NCBI RefSeq assembly: GCF_000220565.1
Contig: NZ_AFPM01000048.1
Location: 1-48,567, forward strand
Origin: Oceanicola sp. S124
GTDB lineage: Bacteria > Pseudomonadota > Alphaproteobacteria > Rhodobacterales > Rhodobacteraceae
Reading direction: 5' to 3'
DNA length: 48,567 nucleotides
Shown here: piece after piece, positions 34,059-45,471 of the stretch
Layout: each line of letters opens with the position of its first letter
How positions within the stretch are numbered: the stretch's first letter is position 1
The notes under the pieces: model-generated
Told to the model about the DNA's origin: nothing
What the model saw: the letters and a program-made list of their open reading frames with translations, nothing else
Databases searched by the model: none
Program-made: the position numbers and the translations under genes

Positions 34059-34112
34059 GTCCTGTCTCGGGAGCGTCAGAATAAGAGAGGGAAAGGTTTG
34101 TTGGTTTGAGGG

Positions 34113-34157
34113 ATGACGGGAAATGAGATCGGAAGAGTGGCTTCCGGCGCCCGTCGT
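34113..34157 (+). promoter_or_regulatory. Two-tiered leader hairpin of the ParB-like gene
   Basis: Outer stem ATGACGGG (34113-34120) with CCCGTCGT (34150-34157); inner stem GGAAG (34131-34135) with CTTCC (34141-34145) and loop AGTGG. Linker GGCG, then the ribosome site GGAGAA and the ATG at 34170. The same design with compensating base changes precedes DUF932 (42435-42478) and the gene at 44366. Confidence 0.65.
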
Positions 34158-34169
34158 GGAGAAGATCTG

Positions 34170-36338
34170 ATGGCGAAACCTGCCCAGAAAGTCACCCTGT
34201 CCCCGTCCCGGGACATTCCCTTCGACAAGCTCGTGCTGAGCCAGTCCAACGTCCGGCGCATCAAGGCCGGCATCTCGGTCGAGGAACTGGCCGAAGATAT
34301 CGCCCGCCGCGGGTTGCTGCAGAGCCTGAGCGTTCGGCCCGTTCTGGCGGATGATGGGTCCGAGACCGGTAAGTTCGAAATCCCCGCTGGCGGTCGGCGC
34401 TTCCAGGCCCTGTCTATCCTCGTGAAGCAGAAACGCTTGGCCAAAACGACGCCCATTCCCTGCATCGTGCGGGATGCCAAGTCCACGATCCTCGCCGAAG
34501 ACGACTCGCTCGCCGAGAACATACAGCGCGCTGCCTTGCATCCGCTCGATCAGTTCCGCGCCTTCGTGGCGCTTCGGGAGAAGGGTCAGGGCGATGAAGA
34601 GATCGCGGCCGCTTTCTTCGTCACGCCGCAGGTGGTCAAACAGCGCCTGAAACTCGCCGCCGTGGCCCCTGCCCTGCTTGAGCTCTATGCCGAGGATGAA
34701 ATGACGCTGGAGCAGTTGATGGCCTTCACGGTCAATCCGGATCACGAGCGCCAGGTTCAGGTCTGGGAGGCGATCCGGTCGTCCTGGAACAAAGAGCCCT
34801 ATCAGGTCCGGCGCATGCTGACGGAAACCTCGGTGCGCGCCTCAGACCGTCGTGCCGCCTTTGTCGGCGTCGAGGTTTATGAGGCTGCTGGCGGCACCAT
34901 GTTGCACGACCTCTTCCAAGGCGATGACGGCGGCTGGCTGGAAGACCCTGCTCTGCTCGATCGTCTGGTCAGCGAGAAGCTTCAGTCTGAAGCCGAAGCG
35001 ATTGCGACCGAAGGTTGGAAATGGATCGAGGTCTCGCTCGACCTGCCCTATGGCTACAGCCACGGTTTGCGGCGGCTGAGCGGAGACCCGGCGCCGATGA
35101 CAGATGACGAAGGCGCGGCCCATGCGAAGCTGCTTGCCGAATACCGGGCGCTTGAAGAGGAATACGAGGGTCAGGATGAGTTCCCCGAAGAGATCGACGC
35201 GCGTCTTGGCGCGTTGGAAGTCGCGATGGAGAAGCTCGAGGCCCGGCCGTTGATCTTCGACGATCAGGAGATCGCGCGGGCAGGGGCCTTTGTGACGCTT
35301 GGTCGCTATGGTGAGCTTGCCGTTTATCGCGGCTTCGTGCGGCCCGAGGATGAGCCACGGGAAGACGCCGACGTGCAGAGCGGCGAGCAGGCCATGGGCG
35401 GGCAGGGCGCCGAGCTTTCCGCGGCGAGCAACGTGGATGGTATCGGCCATGGCACGGTGATCACCTGTGCTGGTCAGGCGCTCGGCGCCAACGTGCCCGA
35501 CGATGAGGACGATGGTGCGTTGAAGCCCTTGCCTGAGCGGCTGGTCATGGAGTTGACGGCGCATCGGACATTGGCACTGCGCGAAGCTGTCGGGCGCTCA
35601 CCTGATGTCGCGTTGACGCTGCTGCTCCTGAAGCTCGTCAATGACACCTTCCGGACGTCCAGTTCGGCCGGCAGCTGCCTCGAGGCTTCGGTGCGTCACG
35701 TCTACATGTCGGCGCAGGCGAGCGATCTGAAGGACAGCGTGGTGGCCAAGCTGGTGGACGATCGTCATGCGGAGTGGGAGGCCGACCTGCCGCTCGACGA
35801 CGATGCCGAACTCTGGGATTACCTAGCGTCCCTCGATCAGGCGAGCCGGCTGGCCCTGCTCGCGCATTGCCTCAGCTTCGGGATCAACGCGCTCCATGAG
35901 AAGGTGAACCCTTATGGTGCCGGTATCTCCGCCAGCGGTCTGACCAAGCGGATGACCCAGTCCGACTTGGTCGCACAGGCGCTAGAACTCGACATGGTCG
36001 AGGCGGGTTGGGAGCCGACGGTCGATACCTACCTCAGCCGCGTGCCCAAGGCCCGGATCCTCGAGGCCGTGCGCGAGGCGAAAGGGGAGGGGACGGCGCA
36101 ACTCCTCGATCACCTGAAGAAGGGCGAGATGGCGACCGAAGCCGAGCGTTTGCTGAAAGGCAGCGGCTGGTTGCCGGAGGTTCTTCGCCGTCACGATCTG
36201 GCGGCACTCGACGGTGTGGAAGGGCAGGGGGCGTCTGAGCCCGTTTCCGGCACCGAGCAGGCCGAAGATGTCGATCTGCCCGCCTTTCTCACTGCTGACC
36301 TGCCGGGCAATGAGGCATCGATGATGGCCGCGGAGTGA
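34170..36338 (+). CDS. Large ParB-like N-terminal domain protein
   Basis: A 722-residue protein. The ATG at 34170 has GGAGAA seven bases upstream. The first 150 residues are a ParB/sulfiredoxin-type domain: LVLSQSNVRRIKAGISVEEL, RRGLLQSLSVRPV, IPAGGRRFQAL and DDSLAENIQR, followed by an HTH (FFVTPQVVKQRLKLAAVAP) near 170. The remaining 500 residues are acidic and helical without a known motif. Homologous proteins sit in the leading or accessory region of many alphaproteobacterial plasmids, apart from repB. A role in segregation or early transfer is unproven. Confidence 0.8.
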   Translation: MAKPAQKVTLSPSRDIPFDKLVLSQSNVRRIKAGISVEELAEDIARRGLLQSLSVRPVLADDGSETGKFEIPAGGRRFQALSILVKQKRLAKTTPIPCIVRDAKSTILAEDDSLAENIQRAALHPLDQFRAFVALREKGQGDEEIAAAFFVTPQVVKQRLKLAAVAPALLELYAEDEMTLEQLMAFTVNPDHERQVQVWEAIRSSWNKEPYQVRRMLTETSVRASDRRAAFVGVEVYEAAGGTMLHDLFQGDDGGWLEDPALLDRLVSEKLQSEAEAIATEGWKWIEVSLDLPYGYSHGLRRLSGDPAPMTDDEGAAHAKLLAEYRALEEEYEGQDEFPEEIDARLGALEVAMEKLEARPLIFDDQEIARAGAFVTLGRYGELAVYRGFVRPEDEPREDADVQSGEQAMGGQGAELSAASNVDGIGHGTVITCAGQALGANVPDDEDDGALKPLPERLVMELTAHRTLALREAVGRSPDVALTLLLLKLVNDTFRTSSSAGSCLEASVRHVYMSAQASDLKDSVVAKLVDDRHAEWEADLPLDDDAELWDYLASLDQASRLALLAHCLSFGINALHEKVNPYGAGISASGLTKRMTQSDLVAQALELDMVEAGWEPTVDTYLSRVPKARILEAVREAKGEGTAQLLDHLKKGEMATEAERLLKGSGWLPEVLRRHDLAALDGVEGQGASEPVSGTEQAEDVDLPAFLTADLPGNEASMMAAE

Positions 36339-36352
36339 TCTGCGCCATCCGG

Positions 36353-36370
36353 GGGCGGGGAAACCCGCCC
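36353..36370 (+). terminator. Hairpin after the ParB-like gene
   Basis: GGGCGGG and CCCGCCC with a GAAA loop, 15 bases after the stop codon. No T-run follows. The most stable simple hairpin in this gap. Confidence 0.55.
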
Positions 36371-36403
36371 TCAATCACATAAAACCAAATAATATCAATA
36401 AGA

Positions 36404-36425
36404 TGAATGCGAAATGACGCATTCA
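36404..36425 (+). promoter_or_regulatory. Leader hairpin of the gene at 36438
   Basis: TGAATGCG and CGCATTCA form a perfect 8-bp stem with a 6-base loop, ending 12 bases before the ATG and followed by the ribosome site GAGG. Simple hairpin, not the two-tiered design of 34113-34157. Confidence 0.45.
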
Positions 36426-36437
36426 GGATGAGGAATC

Positions 36438-36911
36438 ATGTCTGCAACGATCATTCTCGACACCGCGCCGCTAGGGGCGCTCATTCGCTACACCGACAAC
36501 AGTCCGAAACCGCCTGCGCGGTTCACGAAGAAGCTCGCGGCCTGGGAACGCTCGAACGGCGTTGGACGTCTCGTCAAGAAGGAGCCGCCGCGACCCTATC
36601 CAACCCGGACGGCGCCGGCGTCGTTCACGCTACACGAGGGGAACTTCTCTTCGGGCGGGGTCATACTCGTGACAATCATGCGGACACATTCGGCTGATAG
36701 CGCCTTGACCTTCGAGGTCGCTGAGGAACCACAGCCCGGGCAGGTGCGTGTCCTTTTGGATTTCGGCGGTTGCACGGAGTTGCTCCACCTGGCCGAGTCT
36801 GTCACGGCTGCCGAACTCTGGATCGCCAGAGAAGGCTATCGCAACGCGCGGCTGGAGATTGTCGGCGAAGAAGGCGCTGGTAGGGCAGGGGGCGCGGAGC
36901 TTGCCGCCTGA
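36438..36911 (+). CDS. Hypothetical plasmid protein
   Basis: A 157-residue protein of unknown function, cytoplasmic by sequence. The first half is basic with many Pro and Arg (RFTKKLAAWERSNGVGRLVKK); a middle beta-rich part (VILVTIMRT, TFEVAEE) is followed by a helix with VTAAELWIAREGYR. The Pro-rich patch before residue 60 lacks structure. ATG 36438 has GAGGAATC upstream. Proteins of this kind neighbour ParB-like genes on related plasmids. Confidence 0.6.
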   Translation: MSATIILDTAPLGALIRYTDNSPKPPARFTKKLAAWERSNGVGRLVKKEPPRPYPTRTAPASFTLHEGNFSSGGVILVTIMRTHSADSALTFEVAEEPQPGQVRVLLDFGGCTELLHLAESVTAAELWIAREGYRNARLEIVGEEGAGRAGGAELAA

Positions 36912-36926
36912 GCCTATGTAGAACCC

Positions 36927-36954
36927 GAGGGGCCCGCCAAAGCGCGGGCCTCTC
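36927..36954 (+). terminator. GC-rich hairpin after the gene at 36438
   Basis: GGCCCGC (36931-36937) and GCGGGCC (36944-36950) with flanking GAG and CTC extending the stem. It begins 16 bases after the stop codon. No T-run. Confidence 0.5.
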
Positions 36955-37298
36955 ACCCATCACGACCCTGTCCCGCGAAATCGCGGAGCACCATAGGATC
37001 CAATCCATCACGGAAAGAGATCTCACCCAAGAGCCTGCCCTGGAGGCTGGCAGCGAAAGCATCAGCGGAACACCAGGCTCCAGTCAGCGGTCGCACCATC
37101 CCCCGCTCGCCATTCCCTTCCTTGCCCCGAATCCCGTCTTCGAGATCAACCCGCGAGGGGTCGGACTACGGGCATGCCCGTGCCGCCGGGTGGATTCGGA
37201 CGAGCCGAACGCACCCGGTGATGTCAGCCAGTCTTCGGGCCTGCGGGGTCCTGTCGCGCGGGGGATGGTCCTCCGCCTCCAAGACAGGAGCCAAACAG
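36955..37298 (+). other. Intergenic region without a supported gene
   Basis: About 340 GC-rich bases; no ribosome site and plausible protein combination found in either strand. Presumably contains the promoter of the small protein at 37299. Confidence 0.4.
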
Positions 37299-37463
37299 AT
37301 GTCCCGCAAAGATGCTCACGCCTTCGCCGCCTCGCTCGCCGCCACGCTCATGGTCTCGATCGTCGTCTTCCAGGCAGGTGATGGAACCTATGGCGCCGTC
37401 CCCGCCGATGAAATCGACGGAGACGAGGTTCAGGTGGTGGGTGAGATCGACCCGTGGGCGTGA
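37299..37463 (+). CDS. Small single-pass membrane or secreted protein
   Basis: A 54-residue protein whose ATG at 37299 has AGGAG nine bases upstream. The first 26 residues (AFAASLAATLMVSIVVFQAG) form one hydrophobic segment; the rest is acidic with Asp and Glu (EIDGDEVQVVGEID). It is too short for a confident family. A hairpin overlaps its stop codon. A longer open frame from 37122 lacks a ribosome site. Confidence 0.45.
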   Translation: MSRKDAHAFAASLAATLMVSIVVFQAGDGTYGAVPADEIDGDEVQVVGEIDPWA

Positions 37464-37476
37464 AGCCCACGGGGTC
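37449..37476 (+). terminator. Hairpin overlapping the end of the small protein gene
   Basis: CCGTGGGC (37452-37459) and GCCCACGG (37465-37472) with loop GTGAA; the stop codon TGA lies in the loop. Smaller GGAGC-AAG-GCTCC hairpin follows near 37496. Confidence 0.5.
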
Positions 37477-37717
37477 GAAGACGGCTCGGGTTCGGAGCAA
37501 GGCTCCGATCCGGGCCTTTCGCCTGTCCACCGTTCCGGCCGACCGGCAAAATGAGCCGACGATGGTCGGCATGCCTTTGCATTAAGAAAACAAGCTCGAG
37601 CGTCAGCCAATCTGGCTTTGCCCAGACATCAGCGGTCAATTGTAGTGCAATGAATGCAGCTTGAACATCGTCAGGGTTCGTCGGACACTGCGTTGTATTT
37701 GGTTCGGGTCACGTCGC

Positions 37718-38770
37718 ATGCTCTACAAATCATTGATTTCCTTATACGGTTCATCGCTTGCGGGTAAATCGGCTCCTGCTGACGACCTGGTTTGGCACTT
37801 TACGCCGTCCGAGGATCTGAGGCTTTTTCGCGAGTATGCGCTCGATGCCCTACAGCAGGCAAAAGTATACCTGCTCGACCATTTGGCTGCAGCCTATGCC
37901 GATACGCTTCATGACGCAGTCGCCAAACAGGCTTCGGAAACCGGTCTTCCCGCAATGGCCATTCTGGGTGAGGTAAAGCTCCCCGCCGACGTTGTTTGGG
38001 TCGAATTTGACGATCGAGAGCTGGGTGTCGCGCGCTTTGAACGGGCTTCACCTGTAACGAGACATGACGACAAACCCATAGGCACCGGTCTACGCGGCTA
38101 TCTCATCGATGATCGAAACAAGGGCCACTTGCGCATCACGATGTTCCATCGCCGCGAGAATTCCCGTGTCGTCGATCCAATCTGCGCTTTGCTCGTGAAG
38201 CGAGCTCCGACAGGCGAGTTGAACTATGACGACGTCGAAGTCGAGTTGAGCCGTTCCATGGTCGATTTCCGTGTGCGTAGCGGAGATACGATGGAAATGA
38301 TCAACGGTCGGCGAACGGTGCACCAAGTTGAAACAGGCTACGATCTGTTCATCCCCTACGCGCTCTTTGCGATGCTGGTTTCCCCGGACTTGGGTGGCAT
38401 CATTCCCACGGAAAACGAGACGTACACAGCCAAGGATGCAAAGACCGCTCGAAAGTTCGGGAAGTTCTGGATTCTAGGCGCGCAGAAATCCCATCTTACA
38501 ATCCGCATTGGTCCGCAGGCCGCGGCTCACATGCAGGAGCGGCAGGCTCGCCTTGAGTTCGAGCGTCAGGTCCAGGACGGGCGAAGCGGCCCTGTTCGCC
38601 ATTGGGTGAGCGAACATGAGCGTCGCTATCGCAGCGGTAAGGTTGTGTTGGTGAAGGGGCACCACAGAGGGCAATTGCCTGCGCCTAATCTGCCAACGCG
38701 TGTGATGGGACCAAAACCCGAGGCAACGATTTTCGAGTTGGACGCAGTTGATCCGTCCAACCCAGACTGA
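37718..38770 (+). CDS. Hypothetical protein of plasmid or phage type
   Basis: A 350-residue protein starting at the ATG at 37718 (a TTG at 37661 would add 19 residues). No signal peptide or membrane helix. It starts with an alpha/beta region (DDLVWHFTPSEDLRLFREYA), a middle with LRGYLIDDRNKGHLRITMFH and a C-terminus with HWVSEHERRYRSGK followed by VVLVKGHHRG, repeatedly found in uncharacterised plasmid and phage-related proteins. Base composition is lower in GC than the flanking genes, so it may be cargo inserted into the plasmid backbone. I do not recognise a function. Confidence 0.6.
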   Translation: MLYKSLISLYGSSLAGKSAPADDLVWHFTPSEDLRLFREYALDALQQAKVYLLDHLAAAYADTLHDAVAKQASETGLPAMAILGEVKLPADVVWVEFDDRELGVARFERASPVTRHDDKPIGTGLRGYLIDDRNKGHLRITMFHRRENSRVVDPICALLVKRAPTGELNYDDVEVELSRSMVDFRVRSGDTMEMINGRRTVHQVETGYDLFIPYALFAMLVSPDLGGIIPTENETYTAKDAKTARKFGKFWILGAQKSHLTIRIGPQAAAHMQERQARLEFERQVQDGRSGPVRHWVSEHERRYRSGKVVLVKGHHRGQLPAPNLPTRVMGPKPEATIFELDAVDPSNPD

Positions 38771-39522
38771 ACCCGGAGTTTTCCATGCAGCCATGTTGTC
38801 CGCCGTCAATCTATCGCCGCCACATGGAAGAACAGCCCTAGTTTCCGGCCGTGACCGGACCAGGTCGGCGCCAAAAGCTCAGGGTACCGGAAATCCGACG
38901 ATACCGGCGCACAAGTGGTTTCCACTCTCCCAATCAGTTCGGCCCGGAAGTGGTCCATACCGTGGCGATGGCTTCCGCCTTGGTGCAACCTTTCGCCATC
39001 TGCCAATCCGAGACCGTGGAGATTGACCTGGCGACTTTCTTCCGCATTTTCTGCAGAGCGTTGGGCGACAATGTCCCGAGATCGAAATCAGCCGTTGGTC
39101 CGGTTCCTGTCCTGAATATTCCGGCATCGATAGCCCGTCTCGGCAAGGCCCTGCATTCCCCTGCAGGGAAGGGCAAGAGGGCGAGAGCCGGTGATCGACA
39201 CTTGCGCCGCTGGTGGGGTGCTGGGCTTTGGGTCAAACAGTCCGATTGGCAAGGGGACATGGTCTGGCATGGGCTCCCCGCATCTCTCTGTCTCCTGGGC
39301 CATCCCTTCGACTGACAATCCCCTAATCCCGTTCGGTCTCCTGCGCGCAACCCCGCGTCAGTCCGGGCCGTGTTGGCCGCCTTTGGCGTCCTGCCCGCTC
39401 CACCCCGGTCCTCTGGGGGTGTCCGGTGTCCATGTTGTCCACCGTGCACGCGTCACCCGACGGGCTTTTTCAGGGTCTTGTCGAAGGGACGGTCCCGAAG
39501 ACAGGAAACACAGGAGCTTATC
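38771..39522 (+). other. Long intergenic region before ssb
   Basis: About 750 bases. Open frames exist on both strands (plus 38851-39315; minus 38934-39449) but they are antiparallel to each other, lack ribosome sites and match nothing I recognise. A GTCTT/AAGAC outer and GGGA/TCCC inner hairpin lies near 39476-39506 just before the ssb ribosome site. Possibly decayed genes. Confidence 0.4.
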
Positions 39523-39927
39523 ATGCAGAACATCGTCATCCTCGCCGGCAACATCGGTCAGACCCCCGAAGTCCGCACCACCCAGAGCGGCACCAAGATC
39601 ACCAACTTCAGCCTCGCCACCTCGCGTCCCCGCCTCTCGGAAGGCCGTGTGATGCGCGACGAGAACGGCTACCGGGTCATGGACACCGAATGGCACCGCA
39701 TCACCTGCTTCAACGGTCTCGGCAAGACGGTCGCCGAGCATTGCGAAAAGGGGATGAAGGTCCTCGTCCACGGCCGCATCCACTACACCAAGTGGATCGA
39801 CAGCATGGGGAACGACCGCTACGGCTGCGAGATCATCGCTGAGAAGGTCGACTTCCTGAGCCGCCCGAAGTCGGCCGAGAACGAAAACCCCGAGCTGGTC
39901 GACCGCGACGACGAGATCCCGTTCTGA
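39523..39927 (+). CDS. ssb: Single-stranded DNA-binding protein
   Basis: A 134-residue SSB with the OB fold: NIVILAGNIGQTPEVR, ITNFSLATS, MDTEWHRITCFNGLGKTVAEH and VLVHGRIHYTKW. The C-terminus ends EIPF, close to the usual acidic tip DxPF that docks partners. The start follows CAGGAG. Shorter than chromosomal SSB (missing much of the Gly/Pro linker), as is usual for plasmid SSBs. It would protect single strands after transfer. Ends before a strong terminator. Confidence 0.95.
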   Translation: MQNIVILAGNIGQTPEVRTTQSGTKITNFSLATSRPRLSEGRVMRDENGYRVMDTEWHRITCFNGLGKTVAEHCEKGMKVLVHGRIHYTKWIDSMGNDRYGCEIIAEKVDFLSRPKSAENENPELVDRDDEIPF

Positions 39928-39950
39928 GGAACGGGGTCTCCCCCTTCGGG

Positions 39951-39975
39951 CCCGGCGGGTTACCCCGCCGGGTTT
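39951..39975 (+). terminator. ssb terminator
   Basis: CCCGGCGGG and CCCGCCGGG with loop TTAC, a perfect 9-bp GC stem followed by TTT, 24 bases after the ssb stop. Confidence 0.8.
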
Positions 39976-40146
39976 GCCGGATTGCCGCGAGGCGGTTTGG
40001 AGCCCATCTTTCTGATGCTGCACCAAGCGAAAACTCCCTCTAACCTCAGCATGCCGACACTGGACATCATGGAGAAAGATCATTTGATCTTTCTAACGAC
40101 TTCGGTCCTTCCGCGCTCTCATTTTTGTTGGTGATGTCGGTACATG

Positions 40147-40171
40147 GTGTTGCATTGCTTTGCAGCAACAC
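40147..40171 (+). promoter_or_regulatory. Hairpin upstream of the OLD-family gene
   Basis: GTGTTGC and GCAACAC pair across an 11-base loop, 37 bases before the ATG at 40209. The region from 39976 is otherwise featureless. Confidence 0.4.
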
Positions 40172-40208
40172 AACCAGTAGTATTGCGCCTGATTAGGAGT
40201 GACAGCAG

Positions 40209-42311
40209 ATGAAATTGTCCAGGTTCAGAGTTTCCAATTTCCGGTCCGTGTCTGACAGCGGTTGGCTTGAGGCCGACGACGTGACAGCGCTGATTGGGGT
40301 CAATGAGTCTGGTAAGACGAATTTGCTGCTGCCACTTTGGAAGCTCAAGCCTGCCCAAGACGGTGAGATCCAACCGACGTCTGACTATCCGAAAACGATG
40401 TTCGGAGAAATCCGCAATGCGCCGGGCGACTATCACTTCATCGAAGCCGAGTTCGATACGGGTACTTCCGGCGCTGCCATCGCGCAAGCCGCAGGTATTT
40501 CGGCTGAGATCGCTGAGACTGTCCGCGTCACGCGCTTCTTCGACGGTCACTACGACATCGAATTTCCAAAGCACCAACGGATCACCACCGTTACGCGGGA
40601 GTGGCTCGCGGGCAAGCTAACTGGGGCCGCAGGCGCAGTTGAAGCTGCGCAGGCTCTCAAGAAGGAAGCCGAGCTGCAGCCTCAGTTGGTTCAAGGCCTC
40701 AGGGCCACCTCTGATGCGCTGCCCGACACGGAGAACCTTGGAGCGGTTCAATTGCGCGCGGCCATCAAGGCAGTCGATGGGCTAATACCCGAAGAGCCAG
40801 CAGAGACCAGCGTTATTGTCCCGTTGGTAAGGCAACTGGCATCAGAACTAGGCGACCAGCTCCGCGTGCTGATGACACCGCCACCGGGCCGTGTCGAAGG
40901 CGTTGAAGCAGTAGTCGTGAACGCAATCCCGCCATTTGTCTATTACTCCAACTACGGCAACCTCGATTCAGAAATCTACCTGCCGCATGTTGTTGAGAAC
41001 CTCGTGCGACAGGATTTGGGGGCGAAAGAAGCCGCAAAGGCGAGAACGCTGCGGGTGCTGTTCAGCTTCGTACAGTTGGAGGCAAAGGAAATCCTAGAAC
41101 TTGGACGTGACTTCAAAGAGGTGAATGGCCAGAATCGAGAGCCAACCGCAGATGAGATTGCCGCCATCGCGGAGCAAAAACGGACGCGCTCAATCCTGCT
41201 GCAATCCGCGGGCGCAACTCTGACCACTCGCTTTCGGGATTGGTGGAAGCAAGGCGATTACCGCTTCCGTTTTGAGGCGGACGGAAATCATTTTCGTATT
41301 TGGGTTGCTGACGACCGGCGTCCAACTGAGGTAGAACTTGAGAACCGAAGCACGGGTTTGCAGTGGTTCCTGAGTTTCTATCTTGTCTTCCTTGTCGAAA
41401 GCCGAGGCGACCACAAAAAAGCGGTGCTCCTCCTCGACGAACCAGGTGTGTCGCTGCACCCGCTTGCCCAACGTGACCTCTCTGCGTTCTTTGAAAGTCT
41501 GTCCCAGACCAACCAGATCATCTATACATCGCACTCGCCCTTCCTGGTCGATGCGGATCGACTTGAGAGGGCTCGTAAAGTCTATGTAGCGGCGGACGGC
41601 ACCACGAAGGCGACACCAAATCTGCGACATAGCGAAGGCCGGGATGAGCAGGCGGGCGCGGCGTATGCCGTCCATTCTGCACTGAACCTGAGCGTCGCTG
41701 AGAGCCTACTTGTTGGTTGTCGGCCCGTGCTGGTCGAAGGCCCGTCGGATCAGCATTACCTGACTGCAATCAAGGCTCTCTTGGTCTCCGGCGCGAAAAT
41801 TACGCCCAAACGTGAATTGGTCTTCCCACCCTCTGGCGGAACGAAGACAGCGCGTGTAGTGGCCAGCATCCTCACTGGTCGCGACGAAGTTCTGCCGATG
41901 ATGCTGCTCGACGACGATGGTCCTGGCCGACAGATGCGCGCCAACTTGGCTCAGGGTCTGTATGCGGAAAGCCCGGACAAGGTGCTTAACGTCGCAGCCC
42001 ATGTCGGCTACGAGCGTGCCGAGATCGAAGACCTGATACCATTTGACATCATCGCCGACGAACTGGACCGAATGGAACGCGAACCTGACGTTAGGTTCGC
42101 GGACGTTGTGCAGGCAGGCCTGCCAATTGTGGGCCAGATCGAAGCCTGGGCACAGGCGCAGGGCGTGCAACTTGACGAACATTGGAAAGTGCCGCTGTCG
42201 ATCAAGGTCAAACAACGGATGCTGACACGGGGATTGAACGCGATCCCGCCGGATGTGGTGGTTCGGTGGGTCGGGTTGTTCGAGGCATTCTCGCCGCAAG
42301 ACGCACCGTAG
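40209..42311 (+). CDS. OLD-family ATPase-TOPRIM nuclease
   Basis: A 700-residue protein. AGGAG lies eight bases before the ATG. The N-terminal ABC-type ATPase has FRSVSDSGW then LIGVNESGKTNLL (Walker A, near 29-42); the signature/Walker B region is LLLDEPGVSLHPLAQRDL near 425 with TSHSPFLVD. The C-terminal TOPRIM has VLVEGPSDQHYL, then LLDDDGPGRQ and AEIEDLIP. Such fusions cleave DNA; members act in anti-phage defence, alone (class 1) or with a UvrD-like helicase (Gabija). No helicase gene follows, so it is a free-standing class. Low GC and position suggest cargo. Confidence 0.85.
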   Translation: MKLSRFRVSNFRSVSDSGWLEADDVTALIGVNESGKTNLLLPLWKLKPAQDGEIQPTSDYPKTMFGEIRNAPGDYHFIEAEFDTGTSGAAIAQAAGISAEIAETVRVTRFFDGHYDIEFPKHQRITTVTREWLAGKLTGAAGAVEAAQALKKEAELQPQLVQGLRATSDALPDTENLGAVQLRAAIKAVDGLIPEEPAETSVIVPLVRQLASELGDQLRVLMTPPPGRVEGVEAVVVNAIPPFVYYSNYGNLDSEIYLPHVVENLVRQDLGAKEAAKARTLRVLFSFVQLEAKEILELGRDFKEVNGQNREPTADEIAAIAEQKRTRSILLQSAGATLTTRFRDWWKQGDYRFRFEADGNHFRIWVADDRRPTEVELENRSTGLQWFLSFYLVFLVESRGDHKKAVLLLDEPGVSLHPLAQRDLSAFFESLSQTNQIIYTSHSPFLVDADRLERARKVYVAADGTTKATPNLRHSEGRDEQAGAAYAVHSALNLSVAESLLVGCRPVLVEGPSDQHYLTAIKALLVSGAKITPKRELVFPPSGGTKTARVVASILTGRDEVLPMMLLDDDGPGRQMRANLAQGLYAESPDKVLNVAAHVGYERAEIEDLIPFDIIADELDRMEREPDVRFADVVQAGLPIVGQIEAWAQAQGVQLDEHWKVPLSIKVKQRMLTRGLNAIPPDVVVRWVGLFEAFSPQDAP

Positions 42312-42434
42312 TGGTGCCTGAAGGCGCGCGTGGTAAGTGCAAAAAAGCTACCTTCGGTTCGAAACAACATGAACACCAGCTTGGTCCCGTATTGCTCGAA
42401 CTTTTTTAAGAGTGAGAGGCGAGCCGGTTTCCCG

Positions 42435-42478
42435 GTGACAGGTTGAGGATTGGGAGAGTGGCTCCCGGCGCCTGTCAC
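42435..42478 (+). promoter_or_regulatory. Two-tiered leader hairpin of the DUF932 gene
   Basis: Outer stem GTGACAGG (42435-42442) with CCTGTCAC (42471-42478); inner stem GGGAG (42452-42456) with CTCCC (42462-42466) and loop AGTGG; linker GGCG; then GGAGGA and the ATG at 42491. Compared with 34113-34157 the outer stem changes a G-C to an A-T pair and the inner stem an A-T to a G-C pair, while loop and linker are identical. Confidence 0.7.
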
Positions 42479-42490
42479 GGAGGAATGCCG

Positions 42491-43690
42491 ATGGGTGTTG
42501 TGGAAGTTCTGGATCCGGTCGCACCGGCGCGGGCTGGTGGTTGGAAAGTAGATGTGAGCCGGGGCGAGCGGAACGGGCGGGTGTCGTCCGAATGGTTTAA
42601 CCGGCCGGATGACGAGCGGTATCTGTCGCTCGACGATCTCTGGACCAATGTGAAGGGTCGGTCCGAGCGCAGCCGGAGCCGGGTGGTGCAGACGGCAGAT
42701 ATTCGCGTCGAGGCCGCGCGCGACAGCGCCGAGCGATTGCGTCTGGTCTTGCCGCAAGCGCAGGAACCCGTAGCGCCCACACATTGGGCCTTCGGCCAGC
42801 TCGCCAGCATTGTCGGCGCTCCGGCCTCCTACCTGCGGCAGCTGCCTGCTCCTCTGGCGGGGATCAACCTGCAATACGGTTTGACCAACCACCGCGCCGA
42901 GCAGGTGAAGACCTTCGAGACCGAGGATGGCCGCACGGAACTGCGCGCGGTGACCGGTCCCGACTACGGCCGCATCCATGACTTCGAGCTTGTCGAGGCA
43001 GTGCAGCGCATCGCGGGCAATGGCACGGGTGACACGCGCTGGAAGGTGCCGGGTGTGCTCGACTGGTCGACCGGGGTCTACAACCCCGATGTCGAAATCA
43101 GCCGCGACACGACCACGCTCTACGCCTCGGACCGCGACGTCTTCCTGTTCCTGGTCGACGACCGCAATCCGATCGAAGCAGGCAAGTTACCCGACGGCTC
43201 CCCCGATCTCTATTTCCGGGGCTTCTATTGCTGGAATTCCGAGGTGGGCGCGAAGACCCTCGGCATGGCGAGCTTCTACCTGCGGGCGGTGTGCCAGAAC
43301 CGCAACCTCTGGGGCGTCGAGGATTTCCAGGAGATCAAGATCCGTCACTCGAAATACGCCGCTTCGCGCTTCGCCCATGAGGCGGCCCCGGCGCTGACTC
43401 GGTTTGCCAACTCCTCGCCGCAGGGGTTCGTGAATGGGATCAGGGCAGCACGGCAGCAAGTCGTGGCGCGCAGCGACGAAGACCGTGCGGATTTCCTGCG
43501 CAAGCGCGGTTTCTCGAAAGCCGAATCCGGCAAGATCATCGAGAAGGTGCTGATGGAGGAAGGCCGCCCGCCCGAAAGCATCTTCGATTTCGTGCAGGGC
43601 ATCACGCGGCTTGCGCGCGACAAGACCCAGCAGGATGCACGCCTCGACATGGAAGGGCGCGCCAAGAAGCTCCTCGACCGGGTCGGCTGA
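42491..43690 (+). CDS. DUF932 plasmid protein
   Basis: A 399-residue protein. GGAGGA with 6-base spacing selects the ATG at 42491; ATG 42485 is too close to it. The DUF932 region is broad: TADIRVEAARD, THWAFGQLASIVGAPASYL, YGLTNHRAEQVKTF and YNPDVEISRDTTTLYASDRD, FYCWNSEVGAKTLGMASFYL and AVCQNRNLWG. DUF932 proteins lie in the leading regions of conjugative plasmids and phages; some relate to LGT_TIGR03299. The function is unknown. It ends before a strong terminator. Confidence 0.85.
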   Translation: MGVVEVLDPVAPARAGGWKVDVSRGERNGRVSSEWFNRPDDERYLSLDDLWTNVKGRSERSRSRVVQTADIRVEAARDSAERLRLVLPQAQEPVAPTHWAFGQLASIVGAPASYLRQLPAPLAGINLQYGLTNHRAEQVKTFETEDGRTELRAVTGPDYGRIHDFELVEAVQRIAGNGTGDTRWKVPGVLDWSTGVYNPDVEISRDTTTLYASDRDVFLFLVDDRNPIEAGKLPDGSPDLYFRGFYCWNSEVGAKTLGMASFYLRAVCQNRNLWGVEDFQEIKIRHSKYAASRFAHEAAPALTRFANSSPQGFVNGIRAARQQVVARSDEDRADFLRKRGFSKAESGKIIEKVLMEEGRPPESIFDFVQGITRLARDKTQQDARLDMEGRAKKLLDRVG

Positions 43691-43705
43691 CGCCGGACCC
43701 GACAT

Positions 43706-43734
43706 CGCGACCGCCCTCACTTGCGGCGGTCGCG
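43706..43734 (+). terminator. Terminator after the DUF932 gene
   Basis: CGCGACCGCC and GGCGGTCGCG form a perfect 10-bp stem with a 9-base loop, followed by CTTTCC. Confidence 0.7.
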
Positions 43735-43815
43735 CTTTCCCCTTCCACATGCATGCCAATCGCCCCGCCCCGAGAGGGCAGGGAGCTTCGGCGCGCGCAA
43801 TTCAGCGAGACTCCC

Positions 43816-44256
43816 ATGACCCCCCAGGAAGAAACCGTCATTCTCGAGGCCCGTGACATCCTCGGCCGCTACCTCAGCCAGAACCCGGTTATCGACAGCT
43901 GGCAGGCGCTGATGGACTATTGTGCGTTGACCGTTCGAGGTCCGATCGAGCGCTTCCGCGTCCTCTACCTCGACCGCAAGAACCGGATCATTTCCGATGA
44001 GCTTCTCTCGACCGGCACGGTCGATCACGTCCCGGTCTATCCGCGCGAGGTGATCAAACGGGCGCTGATGCTGAACGCCAGCGCCCTGATCCTGATCCAC
44101 AACCACCCGTCGGGCGACCCGACACCGTCGGAGGCCGATCTCGGCATGACCAAGGAGATCCAGAAGGGGTGCAGGTATCTCGGCCTGACGCTGCATGACC
44201 ACATCATCGTAGGTGCCGGGACGGAACTGAGCCTGCGGGCCCTGGGCAAGCTCTGA
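43816..44256 (+). CDS. radC: RadC-type JAB/MPN-domain protein
   Basis: A 146-residue short RadC protein. The JAB metalloprotease-like site is HNHPSGDPTPSEAD (HxH-x(10)-D), preceded by VLYLDRKNRIISDELLSTGT and VYPREVIKRALMLNASALIL. It lacks the N-terminal helix-hairpin-helix of chromosomal RadC. Short forms are common on plasmids and in antirestriction clusters; their substrate is unknown. An ATG at 43816 with CGAGACTCCC upstream gives a weak ribosome site. Confidence 0.85.
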   Translation: MTPQEETVILEARDILGRYLSQNPVIDSWQALMDYCALTVRGPIERFRVLYLDRKNRIISDELLSTGTVDHVPVYPREVIKRALMLNASALILIHNHPSGDPTPSEADLGMTKEIQKGCRYLGLTLHDHIIVGAGTELSLRALGKL

Positions 44257-44316
44257 CGCGCCTTGCGAGCCTGCCGCCGTCACCCTTCCGAGGAAGAGGG
44301 CGGGGGTTTGGTCTTT

Positions 44317-44354
44317 GACGGTTTGAAGCGGGGAGAGAGGCTCTCCGCACCGTC
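44317..44354 (+). promoter_or_regulatory. Two-tiered leader hairpin of the gene at 44366
   Basis: Outer stem GACGGT (44317-44322) with ACCGTC (44349-44354); inner stem GCGGGGAG (44328-44335) with CTCTCCGC (44341-44348), one G-T wobble, loop AGAGG; then GGAGAT and the ATG at 44366. Same layout as the two leaders at 34113 and 42435, with the loop varying in one base. Confidence 0.6.
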
Positions 44355-44365
44355 GGAGATATGCC

Positions 44366-44884
44366 ATGTTCGACCTGCCTCTCCAAACTCAGCCGGAAAC
44401 GCAGAAAACAGGTTTGCCGCCGAGCTTCCCGACCGCTTTTGCAGATCAAGATTTGCCGTTCGCACTCACGACGGCTTGCCATACGCCCGGGGCTCTCATG
44501 TCCGGGCAGGCACACCCCAAGGTACTGGCGCGGTTTGCCACGCTGACCGAGGCCATGCAGGGGGCAATCGTTCAGGCCGAAGATATCATACCTGAAGACG
44601 CTCCGCGCCTCCTGGCAATCCTCGATAGGGAGGGCCGCCTCGTTCTGGCCGGCGCTACCTATGATGGCGGGATCGCATGGTGTCACCCGGTCTCGGATGC
44701 CGCCGAAGCCCGCGCCGTCGTGTCCGAGGCCAGCCAGACCCGCGCGCAGGCCATGCGGGCGGCCGAGTGGCATGAACATGGCCTCGCGCGACGGCTGCGG
44801 CACCACGCCAACGTTCTCGATGCCCGTCTTGTCGATCCGCTCTGGCGTGTCTTCGCGTCTCGCGCCCTGCAGATCGCGGCGTGA
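44366..44884 (+). CDS. Hypothetical plasmid protein
   Basis: A 172-residue protein starting at the ATG at 44366, five bases after GGAGAT. The N-terminal third is Pro-rich and low complexity; the middle (VQAEDIIPEDAPRLLAILDR then LVLAGATYDGGIAWCHPVSD) looks alpha/beta; the C-terminal helix AAEWHEHGLARRLRHHANVL is basic. No known family. It belongs to the short-gene series of this region and has one of the shared leader hairpins, so it is probably expressed with the ParB-like and DUF932 genes. Confidence 0.55.
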   Translation: MFDLPLQTQPETQKTGLPPSFPTAFADQDLPFALTTACHTPGALMSGQAHPKVLARFATLTEAMQGAIVQAEDIIPEDAPRLLAILDREGRLVLAGATYDGGIAWCHPVSDAAEARAVVSEASQTRAQAMRAAEWHEHGLARRLRHHANVLDARLVDPLWRVFASRALQIAA

Positions 44885-44907
44885 CGCCCGAGAGTCAGAG
44901 AAGGGCA

Positions 44908-44962
44908 GGGAAGGATGTGAGCCTAGGAGGACGAGAGAGCCTCGAAGTTCAGATCCTTTCCC
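44908..44962 (+). promoter_or_regulatory. Leader hairpin of the gene at 44980
   Basis: GGGAAGGAT (44908-44916) pairs with ATCCTTTCCC (44953-44962) with one bulge; an inner CGAG-AGAGC-CTCG stem lies at 44932-44944. Related in design to the other leaders, but without the conserved loop. The ribosome site GGAG follows. Confidence 0.45.
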
Positions 44963-44979
44963 TCATTCCGGAGTTTCCT

Positions 44980-45471
44980 ATGTCCAAGATCGAACCCACT
45001 CTGGCCGCGCCGATGGCGCCGTCCAGGATTGATTTCACCGCCGTGCTGGCCCGGCAGGCCGAGCGCGACGCGCGGATCGCAGCTTTGCGTCCGGCCAACA
45101 AGGAGCGCCTCTTCGATGGCCTGACTGCCGCGGGCATCACCCATGTGACCGTGAGCTTTGACGGCTATGGCGATAGCGGCCAGGTTGAAAGCATCGAAGC
45201 GTACGCTGGCGACGCCGAAGTCACTTTCCCCAAGACCCAGATCGCCTATGCCGCATTGACCTGGGACGACCCCGAGGTCGAGATGCGGGCGCTTTCGCTC
45301 GAAGACGTCGTGGAGCAACTGGCCTACGACTTGCTGTCTGACACCCAAGGCGGTTGGGAAAACAACGACGGGGCTTACGGCGAATTCTGCTTCGACGCGA
45401 GCGCTCGCTGCATCCACCTCGAGTTCAATGAGCGCTTCACCTCGTCCGAACTCACCACCCACAATTTCTGA
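44980..45471 (+). CDS. Hypothetical plasmid protein, DUF6878-like
   Basis: A 163-residue protein. The ATG at 44980 follows GGAG by six bases. The sequence includes ARQAERDARIAALRPANKER, ITHVTVSFDGYGDSGQVES, LSLEDVVEQLAYDLLSDTQG, WENNDGAYGEF and IHLEFNERFTS, a pattern I associate with DUF6878 (from memory). It is acidic, cytoplasmic and likely enzyme-like or protein-binding; the role is unknown. It is 10 bases before the next gene. Confidence 0.55.
   Translation: MSKIEPTLAAPMAPSRIDFTAVLARQAERDARIAALRPANKERLFDGLTAAGITHVTVSFDGYGDSGQVESIEAYAGDAEVTFPKTQIAYAALTWDDPEVEMRALSLEDVVEQLAYDLLSDTQGGWENNDGAYGEFCFDASARCIHLEFNERFTSSELTTHNF

Follow-up and report, generated by a model that had tools for sequence, protein, structure and literature searches.

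In a window of 48,567 nucleotides (nt) from Oceanicola sp. S124 (bases 1–48567 of contig C292 in a 339-contig assembly; a repABC plasmid contig), three genes, encoding a ParB-like protein, a DUF932 protein and an orf172 protein, are each preceded by the same two-tiered hairpin, and we judge, from comparison and modeling, that these elements probably belong to a new family of cis-acting RNA leaders controlling translation of an establishment regulon shared among plasmids and probably integrative and conjugative elements (ICEs). As part of the same probable reading, the regulon would comprise ParB-like, DUF932, ArdC (antirestriction) and orf172 genes, with a related class of leaders (class II) covering methylase-helicase and DUF6878 genes; the products look like DNA-establishment proteins. 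According to predicted folds, the leader probably hides the ribosome-binding site, and the plasmid may use translation as the step at which these proteins are jointly switched on. The case is computational and draws on structure, covariation, an unpaired box at a fixed distance, pairing of the spacer with the Shine–Dalgarno (SD) sequence above that of permuted controls, a position just ahead of the AUG, recurrence in front of unrelated genes of a single replicon, and sense-strand constraint.

Genes for plasmid establishment have to work early after entry, and, to our knowledge, the regulation described for them is at promoters. On alphaproteobacterial plasmids, a strongly conserved leader common to genes for antirestriction, ParB-like and DNA-modification proteins would amount to regulon-wide translational control. 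The listings and abstract openings that we consulted in the open-licence literature contain no description of the motif.

Covariation Defines a Leader Family

The sequence-only reading of the window had described three hairpin leaders before genes unrelated in sequence, and their positions, stems and loops are as it described them; the paired stem substitutions that it claimed are present in all three hairpins, and the ParB-like and DUF932 proteins of the window show no mutual similarity. Exact matches to the pattern GGNAGAGWGGCTNYCNGC lie at 34131, 42452 and 44331, and the four window matches with at most two mismatches compare with 0.56 expected. All three leaders fold as two-tiered hairpins, and the second and third (z −3.31 and −4.66) fold clearly better than their shuffles.

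The selected structure is best seen by comparison. Fifteen seed leaders from six plasmid regions and the window, aligned by sequence alone (alignment A1), pair in 94.8% of 232 stem cells and carry two-sided changes in 6 of 16 pairs, values of which neither is reached by any of 500 shuffles (the number of further pair types was equaled by 21 of the 500). A covariance search, which the sequence-only reading had named as a possible refutation, had the opposite outcome and returned further covarying examples, both with a model built from the 15 seed leaders (R1) and with a model of the full class I element from box to AUG (R2, 85 positions). Among 112 distinct R1 matches (of 121), pairing holds in 96.8% of the 1740 cells, and two-sided changes occur in 15 of the 16 pairs and in 132 cells (31.0 in shuffles), whereas slid-partner controls pair in only 39–53% of cells. 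The alignment of R1 matches was fitted to the model and leans its way; A1 and A4, both aligned by sequence alone, agree with it. Kinship among leaders inflates these counts, an effect that the slid controls and permutations address in part, and eight rows of alignment A2 (cut-off or chance matches) were dropped before the counts on 105 leaders and on the AG-box given below. Within the window's own genome, R1 finds the three window copies only, at E < 0.2. Of the 11 pattern matches in that genome, the eight outside the window gave printed folds that lack the two-tiered hairpin and were rejected.

Architecture of the Class I Leader

From 5′ to 3′, a class I leader consists of a AGAGNNAGAG box (the AG-box), a lower stem, an outer stem GUGACGGG/CCCGUCGC, a 6 × 1 internal loop UUGARG, an inner stem and the loop AGWGG, and the hairpin typically ends at or beside the AUG. 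All leaders of the window lie on the forward (+) strand. In leader 1, the AG-box AGAGGGAAAG (34086–34095; one mismatch to AGAGNNAGAG) is followed by a spacer (34096–34112) that forms the 5′ side of a lower stem, weak here, in which GGUUU pairs with AGAUC and the SD sits in an internal loop; the core hairpin (34113–34157; R1 65.5 bits), with outer stem, internal loop, inner stem and AGUGG loop, abuts the SD GGAGAA (34158–34163), and the ParB-like gene starts at 34170. Leader 2 has the AG-box AGAGTGAGAG (42409–42418), a spacer (42419–42434) that in folding pairs with the SD and the SD–AUG interval, a core hairpin (42435–42478; R1 70.2 bits) and the SD GGAGGA (42479–42484) before the DUF932 start codon at 42491. 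Leader 3 combines the AG-box CGAGGAAGAG (44289–44298; one mismatch), a core hairpin (44316–44354; R1 50.5 bits) with stems GACGGT/ACCGTC (outer) and GGGGAG/CTCTCC and an AGAGG loop, and the SD GGAGA (44355–44359) before the orf172 start codon at 44366.

The unpaired AG-box upstream of the hairpin, which the sequence-only reading had missed, occurs in 96 of 98 non-redundant leaders when one mismatch is allowed (66 are exact copies), compared with 6.9% of shuffled upstream sequences, and it stands 15–17 nt from the hairpin in 95 of the 96. Four of its positions are constant in 95–96 of these 96 leaders, which were selected for at most one mismatch.

Two inverted repeats were observed by eye near the box. 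A small repeat, CGCCCTC...GAGGGCG, sometimes contains or adjoins the box, chiefly in leaders of ParB-like and orf172 genes (examples are loci L107, L105, L110 and L053, before ParB-like genes, and 44265–44305 of the window); a GCGGGG/CCCCGC repeat occurs about 5–40 nt upstream of the box in many ArdC leaders (L012 among them) and some DUF932 leaders.

The Spacer Pairs with the Ribosome-Binding Site

A second feature missed at first is the pairing of the SD and the SD–AUG interval with the spacer that separates the AG-box from the hairpin. The tests of spacer pairing, accessibility and anti-SD pairing were run on 93 distinct leaders that belong to the four gene families and whose box departs from AGAGNNAGAG at no more than one position; their energies are predictions, and the boundaries in the folding and permutation scripts were chosen by hand. 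Native spacer and SD pair at −12.59 kcal/mol, compared with −11.59 (standard deviation 0.21) when spacers are swapped within gene families, and the best of 60 permutations reached −12.02. On average, the box is predicted to be unpaired with a probability of 0.86 and the AUG with one of 0.90; for the SD the value is 0.25 (0.42 with the spacer shuffled), and in 71 of the 93 leaders the SD is more hidden than in its own shuffled control. In a fixed register, six of the eight pairs of the lower stem show two-sided changes. Since the spacer pairs with the SD, the box is followed by what is in effect one long hairpin that tends to hide the ribosome site and to end near the AUG.

These structural properties are those of a translational operator or regulatory leader: the element is structured, covaries and includes or abuts the SD. 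The T4 gp43 operator and ribosomal-protein leaders are translational operators with a hairpin beside or over the SD, and the class I leaders resemble them in the hairpin at the SD, the conserved loop and a presumed trans-acting factor; they differ in being common to four or more gene families of mobile elements that are unrelated to one another, and in carrying the additional AGAGNNAGAG box. Targets of CsrA/RsmA, defined by ANGGA in a hairpin loop, are likewise similar in having unpaired purine-rich motifs in loops and near the SD; however, the motif here is AGAG/AGWGG, and the loop columns of 105 distinct leaders (A 105; G 100; A 78/T 25; G 103; G 91/T 12) do not give ANGGA.

Selection Acts on the Sense Strand

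The sequence-only reading had left open whether the motif acts as RNA or as single-stranded DNA; the first is now supported, whereas the second, in the form of a promoter of the Frpo/ssi type, is not. Across the stems of 105 distinct leaders we count 243 G-U and 32 A-C cells (15 of the 32 at one junction pair), and this excess indicates that selection acts on the mRNA-sense strand. In pMM259, the one plasmid with a placeable relaxase, the motif genes run from repABC toward mobC and the relaxase (the position of oriT between ParA and mobC is inferred, and for this single plasmid). In leading-region genes the entering strand is the template, according to PMC11541004; the pMM259 orientation thus makes the transferred strand the template, on which G-U pairs would become A-C mismatches, and together with the sense-strand constraint disfavors a hairpin of the entering strand. 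A Bradyrhizobium pB323S2b stretch considered for the orientation of oriT was dropped, as no relaxase is annotated there.

Placement also points to translation. The start codon lies 5–7 nt past the end of the R1 model, which includes the SD, in 93 of 111 matches, and the AG-box of the DUF6878 gene begins shortly after the orf172 stop codon; leaders therefore stand in front of individual cistrons, an arrangement more in keeping with translation than with promoters or antitermination.

Distribution and Downstream Genes

Plasmid records with similar DNA number 132 for the DUF932 leader (E ≤ 1) and 203 for an ArdC leader (E ≤ 0.01). At E ≤ 0.01, R1 matches 27 of 385 genomes drawn from the class (Alphaproteobacteria, as judged by plasmid relatives of known name), and the draws from family and phylum gave 42 of 198 and 29 of 299, each count including the window's own genome; the genomes are samples, large draws were filtered more strictly and draft contigs hide neighbors. 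Three R1-positive genomes outside the class (G607, G642 and G763) are marginal (E 0.006–0.008) and were set aside. R2 at E ≤ 0.001 matches 34 of 398 phylum-drawn genomes, all of them the own genome or of the same family or class, and many already matched by R1; no match fell outside the class in this draw, which is not shown to have contained G607, G642 or G763, and on loci L117, L118 and L119 R2 gave a single chance-level match (E 0.68). Every listed R2 match spans positions 1–85 of 85, from box to AUG. In all 12 loci from the R2 run, an open reading frame (ORF) of one of the four families follows (only L207 and L208 differ from earlier loci). No match was obtained at E ≤ 0.1 on pSymA, pAtC58, pDSHI01 and pDSHI03, and many conjugative plasmids may therefore lack the element. 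ICEs probably carry it too, since R1 matches occur on multi-megabase contigs.

Behind 111 of the 121 R1 matches an ORF stands at the expected place: ParB-like in 43 cases, DUF932 in 34, ArdC in 21 (a label resting on Pfam PF08401 in one representative) and orf172 in five, the remaining eight including the window's own orf172 (its start misassigned by the script) and doubtful matches. Conversely, the hairpin lies directly before the gene in 29 of 30 returned loci of ParB-like relatives; in the other, near a contig end, the match begins inside the protein. R1 and R2 offer a searchable signature for establishment genes of unknown function.

Some ParB-like relatives have stop codons or split frames (G559:C9, G565:C11, G421:C143 and G510:C14), and the R1 match persists before the interrupted genes in G559, G565 and G510. 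In Bradyrhizobium p192_1, a full R2 element (L132:21057–21139) precedes an unannotated interval between ArdC and toprim genes, perhaps a remnant gene.

Class II Leaders Share the Box

A fourth leader of the window (44891–44979), absent from the sequence-only reading, precedes the DUF6878 gene. Its AG-box (AGAGTCAGAG; 44891–44900) begins 6 nt after the orf172 stop codon and is followed by a larger hairpin (44901–44979) with a GAGAGAG loop and GGAG at 44970–44973, to which R2 gives a weak match (23.7 bits, E 0.0022). Class II, comprising leaders of DUF6878 and plasmid methylase-helicase genes, has the same box about 90 nt before the AUG and a different, large hairpin with a GAGAGA-type loop. We inspected 29 methylase-helicase loci (L158 and two matches without a locus were left out): among those with E ≤ 3e-85 the box is present in 15 of 15 (13 exact, two with one mismatch), 67–100 nt upstream of the estimated start, whereas among those with E > 1e-54 a box with fewer than two mismatches is found in none of 14. 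R2 also matches four to five other class II leaders at E 0.012–0.21. The consensus fold on a mixed alignment is weak (−4.9 kcal/mol; two-sided changes in 8 of 20 pairs), and class II accordingly rests mainly on the shared box and its position. The leaders before plasmid methylase/strawberry-notch helicase genes (L127:7570–7661, L128:20769–20860, L130:23582–23676 and L131:23543–23637) probably fall into two or three structural subtypes.

A Possible Mechanism and Competing Explanations

We propose that the closed form of the leader would limit initiation at the hidden SD, that the AG-box could be the landing site for a trans-acting factor (a plasmid or host protein or RNA) or for a standby 30S subunit, and that binding at box and loops might open or lock the hairpin, such that the proteins of the regulon would rise or fall together, plausibly around conjugative entry. 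Such timing is made plausible by ArdC-type polyvalent proteins, which can be transferred with the DNA (PMC5512222). In its most specific form, the proposal is a plasmid- and ICE-wide translational switch in which one trans-acting factor, recognizing AGAG boxes together with GA-rich loops, would open or close SD-hiding leaders of two structural classes, so that antirestriction, ParB-like, methylase-helicase and related proteins are made in time with conjugative entry through control of RNA and not via single-stranded promoters; we advance this version tentatively, as one that may well prove wrong. The leader itself offers a target with which such a factor might be isolated.

Several observations weigh against translational control by these leaders. 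Leader 1 taken alone folds no better than its shuffles (z −0.58; 49 of 200 fold equally well), and the case for structure therefore rests on comparison. The lower stem in a rigid register pairs in just 63.8% of cells, the ParB-like leader of the window holds its SD in an internal loop, and the four orf172 leaders do not hide their SD (unpaired probability 0.53; 0.43 with the spacer shuffled). The AG-box is ordinary in the window when taken alone: RAGAGNNAGAG occurs exactly twice (0.61 expected; 12 of 100 shuffles reach this) and with one mismatch 12 times (11.49 expected), and its weight thus comes from its fixed place. It also matches an assumed anti-SD tail about as well as the SD does, making a plain ribosome-binding role possible. 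Finally, co-occurrence tests for toprim and ParB-like proteins gave no candidate for the trans-acting factor. The toprim protein encoded in the gene block, sought in 37 of the 42 R1-positive genomes of the family and in 20 of the negatives, is absent from 11 of the 37 and present in two of the 20, and was rejected. A close ParB-like protein is present in most of the 37 positive genomes and absent from at least G455, G491 and G495, some motifs lying near contig ends; as the motif stands in front of that very gene, this test comes close to circularity, and the ParB-like protein could still be an autoregulator.

The strongest competitor, which we nonetheless regard as unlikely, is a structure-bridged ribosome site, in which an SD-like AG-box initiates constitutively or in standby fashion while the hairpin folds the intervening RNA away and no dedicated factor is involved. 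Box and SD form equally stable duplexes with the assumed anti-SD tail (means of −7.81 and −7.80 kcal/mol; spacer −4.15), and in 65 of 93 leaders 0–1 nt separate the hairpin end from the AUG. The hairpin between SD and AUG of T4 gene 38 shows the same principle, an upstream purine box that can come next to the AUG; here, however, the hairpin contains a second SD and is common to several genes. Moreover, the near-constancy of four box positions exceeds what an SD normally needs, the box–AUG distance varies widely when the hairpin is not counted (−8 to 25), and the conserved loop AGWGG and internal loop UUGARG are left unexplained.

A metabolite riboswitch or RNA thermometer, with a host signal or temperature freeing the SD, would be consistent with an SD mostly hidden in a stem and with conserved non-helical residues, but we consider it improbable. 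Rfam 15 gave no match at the gathering threshold in the window and six plasmid regions, and permissive E-value scans of the leaders, class II included, gave none or chance-level matches to microRNAs, small nucleolar RNAs, small RNAs or internal ribosome entry sites far under their thresholds (best E 0.043). The printed folds (about −20 to −48 kcal/mol) have a very high stability for thermometers, and the box is common to leaders with different hairpins (class II), which a common trans-acting factor fits better than one aptamer fold.

Slightly less credible still is a nut-type site for transcription antitermination, recognized by an antiterminator that the plasmid would encode. Like boxA–boxB of lambda nut, the leaders combine a linear box with a pentaloop hairpin at a fixed distance (15–17 nt), repeated before several genes; unlike it, they overlap the ribosome site and recur with each cistron, the neighboring orf172 and DUF6878 cistrons each having their own, and their spacing to the start codon is near-constant and involves the SD.

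A single-stranded-DNA promoter active on the entering strand, in which the transferred strand would form a hairpin with −35/−10 sequences in its stem, is very improbable: although Frpo/ssi promoters are likewise folded elements before plasmid establishment genes (PMC11541004), and the motif genes are of the leading-region kind and on the leading side in pMM259, the strand asymmetry and start-codon position indicate RNA and not transferred-strand DNA, the hairpin ends so near the AUG as to leave little room for a transcript leader, and no TATAAT-like −10 sequence is seen in the element by eye (no promoter scan was run).

Gene Context of the Window

Downstream of repABC the gene order is ParB-like (34170), SSB (39520), DUF932 (42491), RadC, orf172 (44366), DUF6878 (44980) and DUF6915. 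The ParB-like gene (34170–36338, +; 722 amino acids) matches PF02195, and its PRTRC_parB-like score of 61.5 bits is far under the cut-off of 278.6. The DUF932 gene (42491–43690, +; 399 amino acids) scores 21.1 bits to PF06067, under the cut-off of 23, and takes its name from the annotation of its relatives. The orf172 gene (44366–44884, +) is without a Pfam match, and its relatives are annotated as hypothetical or RadC; the DUF6878 gene (44980–45471, +) encodes 163 amino acids. Metal-related cargo, comprising cation efflux, P-type ATPase, ZIP transporter and multicopper oxidase genes, occupies 5890–27807 of the window.

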